Assembly: GCA_018607835.1 (NCBI GenBank)
Contig: JABBAS010000001.1
Span: 22,244-86,243 of the forward strand
Reading direction: 5' to 3'
DNA: 64,000 bases
Origin: Methylobacillus sp.
GTDB lineage: Bacteria > Pseudomonadota > Gammaproteobacteria > Burkholderiales > Burkholderiaceae_C
Shown: positions 45,750 through 50,001 of the stretch, piece after piece
How the letters are laid out: each line of letters begins with the position of its first letter
Position numbering within the stretch: the stretch's first letter is position 1
Made by a program: the position numbers and the translations under genes
Notes under the pieces: generated by a model
Database searches by the model: none
What the model was told of the DNA's origin: nothing
The model's input: only the letters and a program-made list of their open reading frames with translations

Positions 45750-46268
45750 ATGCCGACCGATACGCCACCCGCCCACCCCAAAAAAACCAACGCCGTTGTC
45801 GCTTTGGGGGGCCTCAGCGAGACGCTAGGGTTTCACATTGCTAAGGCCGCGGTAGAGACAGGCAAGGCGTTTACTGCGTTTGTGAGTGAGCCCCTGGGCC
45901 TGCGGAAGGTGGAGTACTCGTTGCTCTTGATTTTGCAGGCTAATCCTGCGCTGTTACCAAAACAGCTGGCAAGCGTCTTGTCGATCACGGCGCCCAACCT
46001 AACCACCTTGCTCGACAAATTTGAGCAGCAGGGCTGGGCCTCCCGCTTACCCAACCCAGAAGATGGTCGTTCTCAATTGGTGCATCTGACGCCAAGCGGG
46101 CGAGCGCTCGCGACGCGTTGTGAGGAGATTGGGGCCGACATGGCGGCGCATTGGGTTGCGCGCCTCAGTCAGGCGGAGAGTCAACTGTTGAACCGCCTGC
46201 TCATAAAACTGTACGGTGCAGGCGATGCACCTACGTCCGACGTTACCTCTGACGTTACCAGCGAATGA
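45750..46268 (+). CDS. MarR-family transcriptional regulator of the hydroxycinnamate cluster
   Basis: The protein has 172 residues. The winged helix-turn-helix runs LLILQANPALLPKQLASVLSITAPNLTTLLDKFEQQGWASRLPNPEDGRSQLVHLTPSGRALA, with the DGR wing typical of MarR. It ends in a low-complexity tail (TSDVTSDVTSE). Relatives such as CouR and FerR/FerC repress hydroxycinnamate genes and release DNA when bound by the CoA thioester. The 37-bp operator in front of ech is the likely target, inferred from context. The 3' end overlaps the convergent nrsF gene by 14 bp. Confidence 0.9.
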   Translation: MPTDTPPAHPKKTNAVVALGGLSETLGFHIAKAAVETGKAFTAFVSEPLGLRKVEYSLLLILQANPALLPKQLASVLSITAPNLTTLLDKFEQQGWASRLPNPEDGRSQLVHLTPSGRALATRCEEIGADMAAHWVARLSQAESQLLNRLLIKLYGAGDAPTSDVTSDVTSE

Positions 46269-46899
46269 GGCGTGGCGTGCAGAGGGCGCCGATGGCGATG
46301 GCGATGGCGATAGCCAAGCCAAACCACAACACAATGTAGCTGGGTGCGTTCTCTGCGCAACCCAAGGAAAACAAGGGGATTGCAAAGCCGACCGCCACGG
46401 CACCGCTCGCCGCACCTGTAAAACGAAGTCGTGTGGGTAAGCATTGGCGCGCTTGCCAGGCCAGCGCAAGCCAGATCGGCATAGCGAGTAAAAGAATCCC
46501 GCTTGTGCAGGCCAAACCGTTTTCTGGTACGTGCTGCGATGCGTTTGTACCCGTCGCTGTATAGTCTATCCACACCCATATCGCCGCCCCAAGCAGGGAT
46601 AGCCGCGCGGCCACTTCTCCCCATTGCACGGGGCCTAGGCGCGAGGTCAGCAAGTCACCCCAGACGCGGATGGCGACGACAAAAATGGCAATGCCCGATA
46701 AGGCTTTTACAAAGTAGCCAGCGATAAACGGTTGCTCAAAAACGGTGTTTGCGACCCCCCACGCATAGAAAAACAAGCCGACGCTGCATGACAGGGCCAA
46801 GACATTGACCATTAGGGCGTGTCGCTGTCGGGTCTCGGGTGCCGTGCGCAGCCCTGCGTTTCCTTGACTTAGCAGGCTAATTAATGTGGCTGTTTGCAA
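46255..46899 (-). CDS. nrsF: NrsF-family (DUF1109) membrane anti-sigma factor
   Basis: This 214-residue membrane protein has about six helices (for example LALSCSVGLFFYAWGVANTVF and MPIWLALAWQARQCL). The cysteines in NGLACTSGILLLAMP and FSLGCAENAPSY are at places conserved in NrsF. The start is TTG 46899 with GGAGGG upstream, overlapping the sigF stop by 19 nt. NrsF proteins hold SigF-type ECF sigma factors inactive and sense metal or thiol stress through their cysteines. Position beside sigF and the bufferin operon fits exactly. Confidence 0.86.
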   Translation of the reverse strand: MQTATLISLLSQGNAGLRTAPETRQRHALMVNVLALSCSVGLFFYAWGVANTVFEQPFIAGYFVKALSGIAIFVVAIRVWGDLLTSRLGPVQWGEVAARLSLLGAAIWVWIDYTATGTNASQHVPENGLACTSGILLLAMPIWLALAWQARQCLPTRLRFTGAASGAVAVGFAIPLFSLGCAENAPSYIVLWFGLAIAIAIAIGALCTPRLIRW

Positions 46900-47453
46900 C
46901 GATCCCTCCGCAGTAGTTCTGTCATCTTCTTTAGTCCTCGGTGGGTTGAAACCTTGATCACACTCTCGCTCAAGCCCAAAAATTTTGCGGTCTCCTGAAC
47001 CGAATAACCGTTTAATTTCACCATGGTGATGACCTCCCTTTGACGTGCTGATAGGCGCGCCATTAGGCTAGGCAAATCACCCTCTGTTTCATCCCCACGG
47101 TCCGTCCTTGGGTCAGTGGATGGGTCGACCAACGCATCGCTGGCCTCCGGGGTCAACGGGTCTTCTGCCCGTCGCGACTGCTGCCGCCAAAAATCAATCA
47201 TTTTGTATCTGGCGATCGTGTGCACCCAAGCCGTTACCGGGGCCGCGCTGTCGTAGGTGTCTTGCTTGAGATGGACGGCAAGCAAAACGTCTTGCACGAG
47301 ATCCTCTACGTCAGCATCCTGCCCGACTAATCGTCGCCGCGCATAACGTCGAACCAGCCCCGCAATACCCTGAAGTAATGCCTTATAGGCGGCGTCGTCG
47401 CCGTTACGTGCCAATGCAAAGCAGTGGGATAAATGGTGCTCAACGGTTGCCAA
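46881..47453 (-). CDS. sigF: ECF sigma factor, SigF-like
   Basis: I choose TTG 47453 (LATVEHHLSHCFALARNGDDAAY) as start because the track's ATG 47561 would place the bufA promoter inside the gene and adds a non-conserved leader. The product has about 190 residues. Region sigma-2 contains VEDLVQDVLLAVHLK and TAWVHTIARYKMIDFWRQQSRR. Sigma-4 contains LSARQREVITMVKLNGYSVQETAKFLGLSESVIKVSTHRGLKKM. This is the Caulobacter SigF/ECF group that drives bufferin and metal-stress genes. It is divergent from bufA. Confidence 0.9.
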   Translation of the reverse strand: MATVEHHLSHCFALARNGDDAAYKALLQGIAGLVRRYARRRLVGQDADVEDLVQDVLLAVHLKQDTYDSAAPVTAWVHTIARYKMIDFWRQQSRRAEDPLTPEASDALVDPSTDPRTDRGDETEGDLPSLMARLSARQREVITMVKLNGYSVQETAKFLGLSESVIKVSTHRGLKKMTELLRRDRCKQPH

Positions 47454-47505
47454 TGTATTCTTATTTGCTGGTGAGGGCAAATAATATAATAAAAAACGAT
47501 GAAAT

Positions 47506-47531
47506 GTAACCTTTTTTGTAATTCTAACGAA
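47506..47531 (+). promoter_or_regulatory. SigF-type ECF promoter of bufA
   Basis: GTAACC (47506-47511), exactly 16 bases, then CGAA (47528-47531). This is identical to the Caulobacter SigF consensus GTAACC-N16-CGAA. The spacer has a T6 run just after the -35, as ECF promoters often do. It points toward bufA, whose ATG is 57 bp downstream. No such sequence faces sigF. Confidence 0.85.
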
Positions 47532-47587
47532 TACGTTATTGTGGTTGCTTGCTTTAAGCATACTTCGTTTTAACTAAAGGTGAACTT

Positions 47588-47845
47588 ATGACCAAACTTT
47601 CAACATCAACGATTGTTGCCCTGGCCTTAGCTGGCATGACTGCTGGCGTCACGCTAAATGCGCAAGCAGCCAAGATGCCACAGGAAAAGTGCTATGGCGT
47701 TGCCATGGCCGGTGCAAATGACTGTGCAGCGGGCCCAGGCACCACGTGTGCAGGTACCTCTAAGACTGACAAACAAGCCAACGCTTGGAAGTATGTCGAT
47801 GAAGGCAAGTGTGTTGGCATGATGGGTACGCTCAAGGCCATGTAA
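47588..47845 (+). CDS. bufA: Bufferin precursor peptide BufA1-like (DUF2282)
   Basis: The protein has 85 residues. A Sec signal peptide spans about residues 1-28 ([21 protein letters not shown]). The mature peptide has four cysteines at residues 35, 46, 54 and 75, in [24 protein letters not shown] and DEGKCVGM, the DUF2282/BufA1 pattern. Bufferins are ribosomally made peptides whose cysteines are converted to thiooxazoles by BufB/BufC and which then chelate copper in the periplasm. AAAGGTG precedes the ATG. It is first in bufA-bufB-bufC-doxX. Confidence 0.92.
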
Positions 47846-47856
47846 GCGGAGGTCGC

Positions 47857-48771
47857 ATGATGCGAGTCCACAGTCCAAACGCTCACGGCGTTCCCTCATC
47901 ACCGGCGACACGTCGGGACATGGGGGCTGGCTTAGGCGTCAAGCCTAGCCACTGGGCTGAGGTGCTCGCCTTAGACGACGCACCCCACTTCTGGGTCGAG
48001 GTTCACGCAGAAAACCATATGGTTGACGGTGGTCCTCGACTTGCAGCCCTAGACGCTTTAAGAGCCAAACACCCACTTTCATTGCATGGTGTTGGCCTCT
48101 CGCTCGCGGGCGAAGACCCCCTAGACGTCGCCCACTTGGCGCGCCTAAAACGGCTGGTTGACCGCTGTGAACCGTGGTCTGTATCCGAGCATCTGTCATG
48201 GTGCAAACATGACGGCACCGTTTTCCCCGACCTTCTGCCCGTCGTGCGCACGCCGGCAGCGTGCCAGCGCATTGCCGCGCGGATTACGCAGGTTCAGGAG
48301 GCGTTGGGTCGTCCGATCGCAATCGAAAACCCAACACATTACTTAAGCGATATGGGGCACACCCTATCGGAAGATGTTTTCCTCAACGAGTTGGCGGACC
48401 GCTGTGGCAACACCTGGTTACTCGACATCACCAACGTGGTGATATCGGCCCACAACACGGCAGGCACCACGGAAAGCGTGGATACCGATTGGATTTTTAG
48501 ACTCCGCCCAGATACGGTGAGCGAGATCCACTTGGCTGGATTTAGCGACGACGCGCAAGCGCTGACAGCCACAGGCTTACCGCTGCGCATCGACAGCCAC
48601 AGCCATGCCCTTGGCAACGAGGTACGTGCGCTGTACAAGCGTTACGTTGCCTTTGCTGGGCCCCGACCGAGTCTCGTGGAGTGGGACAACGACGTCCCGC
48701 CGTTTGAAGCGTTGTGGCGCGAACGCACGTGGGTTCAGAGCGTGTTGACGCAAGCTAGACCCAGCGAATGA
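47857..48771 (+). CDS. bufB: BufB-like MNIO (DUF692) peptide-modifying enzyme
   Basis: The start is ATG 47857 after GGAGG; the track's earlier start overlaps bufA. The product has 304 residues forming a DUF692 TIM barrel. It opens with GAGLGVKPSHWAEVLALDDAPHFWVEVHAENHM and LSLHGVGLSLAG. Iron ligands are expected from SEHLSWCKHDG, AIENPTHYL, WLLDITNVVISAHN, EIHLAGF and RIDSHSHALGNEV. MNIOs are multinuclear non-heme iron oxygenases that modify cysteines on RiPP precursors. The substrate here should be BufA, encoded 11 bp upstream. It overlaps bufC by 4 nt. Confidence 0.93.
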   Translation: MMRVHSPNAHGVPSSPATRRDMGAGLGVKPSHWAEVLALDDAPHFWVEVHAENHMVDGGPRLAALDALRAKHPLSLHGVGLSLAGEDPLDVAHLARLKRLVDRCEPWSVSEHLSWCKHDGTVFPDLLPVVRTPAACQRIAARITQVQEALGRPIAIENPTHYLSDMGHTLSEDVFLNELADRCGNTWLLDITNVVISAHNTAGTTESVDTDWIFRLRPDTVSEIHLAGFSDDAQALTATGLPLRIDSHSHALGNEVRALYKRYVAFAGPRPSLVEWDNDVPPFEALWRERTWVQSVLTQARPSE

Positions 48772-49514
48772 GCGCACACGCCGCAGTGCCCCGCACGCGA
48801 CGTGATCCGCACGCCATCGCACAAACCATACTTAACCGACAGACACCCGATGCATTGGGTCTGTTAAAAATTTACCGCAACACGGTTTGGCGCGCCTGGT
48901 TGGATGCGATGCAGCAGCAATTTCCCAGCGCCTGCGCCTTGATGGGTGATGCGGTCGCCGACGAGGTGATCCGCGCCTACTTGCATGGGCATCCGCCCCA
49001 AAGTGGCGTGTTGTTAGATATTGGGGTGTCATTTCCTGCGTTTCTTCATGGCGGCGGTAGCGCCCACTTGTTACACGCCAAGATCGCGCAGTGTGACTGG
49101 CTTTGGAGTCGATCACATGTGGCTGCAGATGCCCCGAGTCTGACGCTGGCGGGTTGGCACGCGCTACTCATGCAGCCCGATCAGTGTGTCGTTCTTCACC
49201 CTGCGTGTTACTGGTATGCGCCTGACTCTGCGGACCTAGCCCAGCAGTGGTCTGCCGGTCGTGAGGGTGTGGGCGAGCTCACTGGGGTGGGCCTTTTGTT
49301 TGGTCGCCCCTTTGGCGCCGTTGAGTCTGCCGGCTTAACGCTTGCAGAGCTTGCTTGTTTGGAGCGCCTAAAAGCGGGCGAGCCATTGACCCAAGCCATT
49401 GAGGCTGCTTACGCAGTGGATACGCATATCGATTTTTCCGAACTCGGCGCCAAGCTACTGCACGTTGGCGTTATCTCTTGCCTCTTACCCGCCCCTTGGA
49501 GTACCCATGACTAG
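48768..49514 (+). CDS. bufC: BufC-like RiPP-recognition partner (DUF2063)
   Basis: The protein has 248 residues. The DUF2063 N-terminal domain shows [32 protein letters not shown] and [23 protein letters not shown]. The C-terminal region is probably a RRE-like precursor-binding domain. In bufferin and related HvfABC operons this protein presents the precursor to the MNIO. The start overlaps bufB by 4 nt, and its stop overlaps the doxX gene by 8 nt, showing tight coupling. Confidence 0.9.
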
Positions 49515-50001
49515 CCCCTCACAACCCCCTCTTGATCTAGGACCAATCGACCGCGTCATACCCTCGAGCGTATTGTCTATCGCGCACAAGATAATTAGCC
49601 GGGACCTGTTGTTGCTCGGCGCTCGCGTTGCCTTGGGGACAATTTTCTTCATGTCTGCGCGAACCAAGGTCGACGGCTTTCTAAGTATTCGAGATGCCAC
49701 TTACTTTTTATTCGAGCATGAGTACGCATTGCCTTTGATCCCGTACGAGTGGGCGGCGGTTTCCGGCACCTATGTCGAGCACTTGTTGAGTGTGCTGCTG
49801 ATTTTTGGGCTTGGATCGCGTCTCAGTGCCTTCGGCATTTTGTCAATGACGGCGATTGTCCAAGTCTTTGTCTACCCAAGTGCGTGGCCAACCCACTTGA
49901 GTTGGGCCGTGCTGGCTTTGCTTGTTGTGTTGCACGGTGGGGGTCGGTGGTCTTTCGATCGCTTCATGGGCGCAAGTCCGACTCAGCCATCGGCGACCTA
50001 A
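49507..50001 (+). CDS. DoxX-family membrane protein of the bufferin operon (BufD-like)
   Basis: The start is ATG 49507 ([13 protein letters not shown]), with GGAG seven bases upstream; the track's longer ORF overlaps bufC. The product has 164 residues and about four membrane helices ([53 protein letters not shown], and a final [15 protein letters not shown]). DoxX proteins are a common last gene of DUF2282-DUF692-DUF2063 operons, and their role is not settled (thiol or quinone redox in the membrane has been suggested for relatives). Confidence 0.87.

Follow-up and report, generated by a model that had tools for sequence, protein, structure and literature searches.

The consensus of SigF-dependent promoters in Caulobacter is GTAACC-N16-CGAA, and the promoter of sigF carries the same motif (PMC3511200). 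The transcription start of CC3254, the Caulobacter homologue of bufA, was mapped at position -61, and the SigF dependence was demonstrated by 5′RACE and lacZ fusions (PMC3511200). Furthermore, sigF is needed for copper tolerance in this organism (PMC8224329). The cysteines 131 and 181 of the Caulobacter NrsF are required for normal control.

For the gig genes of Cupriavidus metallidurans CH34 no promoter was identified and control by RpoQ was only assumed, while rpoQ-rsqA was reported to be RpoD-dependent (PMC10304878). A survey of Buf1 clusters covers their gene content and never uses the word "promoter" (PMC12452194).

A comparable locus was analyzed in the window, i.e., the whole stretch of 64 kb of DNA under study, which belongs to a genome of 2.42 Mb in 76 contigs. 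Here, bufA (DUF2282), bufB (MNIO), bufC (DUF2063), and a DoxX gene follow each other on the plus strand and are divergent from sigF and nrsF. The features of the locus are as follows:

46255-46899, minus strand: nrsF, membrane anti-sigma factor with Cys131 and Cys181 (PF06532, E=1e-23; cysteines aligned with those of C. metallidurans RsqA)
46881-47453, minus strand: sigF, ECF sigma factor of 190 aa from the preferred start TTG 47453 (Sigma70_r2 and r4; alignment with relatives)
47454-47561, minus strand: in-frame extension up to ATG 47561 that is probably not translated (it contains the promoter boxes, its residues lack conservation, and the frame of the sister genome is closed)
47481-47510, minus strand: candidate sigma-70-like promoter facing sigF, GTTACA at 47510-47505, then TATATT at 47488-47483 or TATTAT at 47486-47481 (consensus scan)
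47506-47511, plus strand: -35 box GTAACC of the SigF-type bufA promoter (exact match, conserved in relatives)
47528-47531, plus strand: -10 box CGAA, 16 bases past the -35 box (exact match, spacing control)
47537-47541, plus strand: predicted transcription start region of bufABC-doxX with a leader of about 50 nt, placed from the -10 position
47576-47583, plus strand: ribosome-binding sequence AAAGGTGA of bufA (read in the sequence, conserved in the sister genome)
47588-47845, plus strand: bufA, bufferin precursor (DUF2282) of 85 aa (PF10048, E=9.5e-22)
47857-48771, plus strand: bufB, MNIO maturase (PF05114, E=4e-76; NCBIfam MNIO_BufB, E=7e-85, below the curated cut-off)
48768-49514, plus strand: bufC, DUF2063 partner protein (PF09836)
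49507-50001, plus strand: gene of a DoxX-family membrane protein, which ends the presumed operon (PF07681; its start is an ATG overlapping the bufC stop)

The genome has no DUF2282 gene besides bufA. The bufA product has the conserved cysteines and is accompanied by MNIO and DUF2063 genes, which is the composition by which a Buf1 operon is defined. No Rfam RNA family was found in the region 47300-47900. Among ten searched genomes of the genus, several of them incomplete, bufA was present in five, and the cluster thus looks patchy in the genus.

The sigF product contains the regions 2 and 4 (PF04542, PF08281), and its gene, which adjoins nrsF, is one of five genes with a sigma-70 region 2 in the genome. 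The nrsF gene is the sole NrsF gene found; its product reaches 33.7 of the 300 bits set as cut-off for the NCBIfam NrsF equivalog and hence stays below it, while Cys131 and Cys181 are conserved at the same numbers as in Caulobacter. Near the 3′ end of nrsF (46290-46311) lies a 6-bp tandem repeat, CGATGG, with 3.7 copies. It encodes an Ala-Ile run in the last membrane segment, and a change in copy number stays in frame.

The pattern scan of the window identified GTAACCTTTTTTGTAATTCTAACGAA at 47506-47531 on the plus strand, which matches GTAACC-N16-CGAA with no mismatch. It points towards bufA, the start of which lies 57 bp downstream. It is the sole exact match within the 64 kb, where ten fixed bases lead by arithmetic to an expectation of about 0.12 on both strands, and of about 1e-4 on the single intergenic strand facing bufA. 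Matches with one mismatch occur at chance level (five seen, 3.57 expected). The base directly 5′ of CGAA is an A, compared to a G in 28 of 32 bufA-facing sites. The preliminary description had called boxes and spacing identical to the Caulobacter consensus (PMC3511200), which is correct.

BufA loci were gathered from relatives and from 84,980 species genomes. Those 42 loci in which SigF and BufA genes are close and divergent were used as a spacing control. At a spacing of 16, the pair GTAACC/CGAA forms 31 bufA-facing and 37 sigF-facing sites, compared to a total of five pairs at the remaining 16 spacings in the range 8-24. In addition, a weight matrix of 30 columns was built from 74 training sites of relatives, with the window and its sister genome left out. 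With this matrix, 47506-47531 takes the first rank among about 128,000 positions with 13.2 bits, followed by a position with 6.65. In the sister genome, the spacer of the bufA-facing site is 15 instead of 16. Across 109 BufA loci, the bufA-facing motif was found in 31 of 48 with a detectable SigF homologue and in 2 of 61 without one (Fisher p=9e-13, which overstates independence, as the loci are related); a cleaner argument is provided by the spacing control. The site is considered genuine because its position, orientation, and spacing are conserved in relatives, and not because of genome-wide counts. The tie to the adjacent sigma factor, which was proposed before, is borne out by the conserved spacing and the matrix rank, and 47506-47531 is very likely a SigF-type promoter through which SigF controls bufA.

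In 14 further loci, Sphingomonadales included, sigF is located on the same strand downstream of bufA, and 13 of them have a bufA-facing site. Based on this, the bufA promoter may also serve sigF in these loci, as part of a putative operon.

The whole genome was also scanned, as had been proposed in the preliminary description. Two exact matches to GTAACC-N16-CGAA were found, compared to ten for a reversed-pattern control; the second one lies antisense inside a livG-like ABC-transporter ORF. Likewise, GTAACC-N15-17-CGWA is not enriched (18 matches, compared to 64 for the reversed pattern), and sites deviating by at least two bases are indistinguishable from chance in such a scan. Besides the bufA and livG matches, 16 of the 18 remain, of which 15 lie in open frames. 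The only other intergenic one is GTAACC-N15-CGAA at 1435-1459 of locus L121 (minus strand, contig C14), located 58 bp upstream of an iron-transport gene similar to fbpA. Its CGAA adjoins a dyad, AATGAGAATGGGTCTCATT, which resembles a Fur-type site, and the match was taken as chance. The msrPQ genes are present in the genome, and their upstream region shows no SigF site. Since all other exact or near matches sit in open frames, with the exception of the one with N15, the SigF regulon probably consists of this single operon. The claim that the sigma factor is tied to one operon is thus sustained, as no convincing further site was found.

No match at N16 with up to two mismatches faces sigF in the intergenic region of the window, which agrees with the earlier statement on the orientation of the site, towards bufA instead of sigF. 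With the weight matrix, sigF-facing positions reach at most -10 bits in the window and -19.9 in the sister genome, compared to a minimum of 12.5 among the training sites. The preliminary description had read this orientation as a sign of specificity. That reading does not hold, since relatives normally have a second site facing sigF, which is carried by 38 of the 42 divergent loci. Both sites are present, for example, in the culturable relative Betaproteobacterium MOLA814. A site that faces bufA but not sigF is itself the anomaly, which had been overlooked.

The four loci without a sigF-facing site are those of the window, of the sister genome (G005), L014, and L075. L014 has a version with one mismatch, and L075 comes from an alphaproteobacterium, its SigF being more distant. 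Within the genus, L013, L014, and L049 have an exact, an N15, or a one-mismatch version, and any version is absent from the window and the sister genome only. In the SigF tree these two form one clade (100/99). A single loss in this clade would be the simplest account, because the two group together while the three other genus members keep versions of the site. The branch leading to the two SigF proteins is long (0.94 changes per column). This suggests fast evolution of SigF alongside the loss of the site, and the specificity of the SigF in the window could have drifted on this branch.

The intergenic regions of the window and the sister genome were aligned pairwise. The conserved blocks are GTAACC, TAACGAATA, the ribosome-binding site of bufA, and an AT-rich stretch, AATAATATA, which, read towards sigF, comprises the GTTACA and TATATT-type elements. 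These are arranged as GTTACA-16-TATATT or GTTACA-18-TATTAT in the window and as GTTACA-18-TATATT in the sister genome. The sigma-70-like site has 9 of 12 consensus matches, is found in two genomes and lies in AT-rich DNA, and it is weak evidence when taken alone. With moderate confidence we infer a housekeeping promoter for sigF-nrsF, the -35 element of which would be the reverse of the bufA -35 box. The RpoD dependence of rpoQ-rsqA (PMC10304878) is a precedent for housekeeping control of a sigma gene.

Taken together, the best explanation of the whole, which we hold with high confidence on the basis of the sequence and of the analogy to Caulobacter, is a bufA promoter switched by SigF, a sigF-nrsF unit without a SigF site, and a sigF translated from TTG 47453. 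As in Caulobacter, SigF would be kept inactive by the membrane protein NrsF in resting cells. A periplasmic metal stress, probably copper as judged from the same organism, would be sensed via Cys131 and Cys181 of NrsF and lead to the release of SigF. RNA polymerase with this SigF/RpoQ-type ECF sigma factor would then start bufABC-doxX at 47506-47531, assuming the recognition known from Caulobacter, and the genes of the bufferin precursor and of the proteins maturing it would be transcribed. The modified peptide is predicted to bind copper. With less certainty, sigF-nrsF would be read by the housekeeping polymerase from the AT-rich promoter overlapping the bufA -35 box, so that SigF would not amplify itself.

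That the match at 47506-47531 arose by chance, with bufA transcribed from a different promoter, is hardly credible. The pattern is indeed not enriched in the genome, but the conservation in relatives and the low expectation on this intergenic strand both argue against a coincidence. It is also very unlikely that sigF starts at ATG 47561, which would put the bufA promoter within the sigF reading frame, on the other strand, and imply overlapping transcripts. This ATG is the "annotated" start in the sense that it begins the longest ORF, a frame of 226 aa which is open from 47561, and divergent transcripts can in principle overlap. However, the sigF frame of the sister genome is closed before the equivalent position, a GTG of the sister aligns with TTG 47453, where the homology begins, and other relatives start near the same residue, mostly 6-23 nt past the -10 box of their own sigF-facing promoter. 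Furthermore, the extension is not conserved, and a good ribosome-binding site is absent before ATG 47561, while a weak TAAG precedes TTG 47453. Because of the closed frame, the alignment, and the starts of the relatives, TTG 47453 and not ATG 47561 is probably the start codon of sigF. The conclusion that the ATG is wrong had already been drawn from the overlap with the promoter and is probably right, but this reason is insufficient, as promoters can lie within a gene on the other strand.

A real bufA promoter could also be combined with a sigF that is still autoregulated via a degenerate or unrecognized SigF site, which we regard as rather unlikely. Sites of this kind are usual in relatives, and GCAACC-N17-AGAA (two mismatches, N17) faces sigF at 47548-47522. 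However, by simple arithmetic chance alone would yield about 0.2 matches this loose there, and the low matrix scores in both genomes speak against it. More doubtful still is an extension of the preferred reading, in which the lost SigF autoregulatory promoter was replaced by the housekeeping promoter with its -35 element opposite the bufA -35 box, both polymerases compete for the same piece of DNA, and active SigF lowers the expression of its own gene. If true, the positive feedback of SigF on its own gene would have become negative.

Compared to the known systems, the gene arrangement is not new. The divergent gene set has the layout CC3252-CC3257 of Caulobacter crescentus with sigF-nrsF and CC3254-CC3257 (PMC3511200), and both loci share GTAACC-N16-CGAA before the DUF2282 gene and the same NrsF cysteines. 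CC3254 even shows a start-codon misprediction beside a promoter which is comparable to that of sigF in the window (PMC3511200). In contrast to the window, the sigF gene of Caulobacter is preceded by a SigF-type promoter, and the regulon includes msrPQ as well as a second buf operon. As in the Buf1 clusters (PMC12452194), the DUF2282 precursor, MNIO, DUF2063, DoxX, the sigma factor, and NrsF occur together. A bufA promoter was to be expected once the gene order was known; the absence of a sigF-facing site amounts to a small regulatory variant, and the change in feedback is deduced from the sequence.

The Caulobacter SigF-bufferin switch is hereby extended to the Burkholderiales with strong footprint evidence. 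The divergent gigPABT and rpoQ-rsqA genes of C. metallidurans CH34 have the same layout as the window, and in the gig region (L167, NC_007974.2 1313350-1318500) exact sites face gigP (1819, minus strand) and rpoQ (1854, plus strand), which gives a placed promoter prediction for gig. Unlike the window and its sister genome, CH34 has kept the GTAACC-N16-CGAA facing its sigF. Next to such relatives, a small clade that seemingly has no feedback site at the sigma gene offers a natural test of autoregulation in metal-stress sigma factors.
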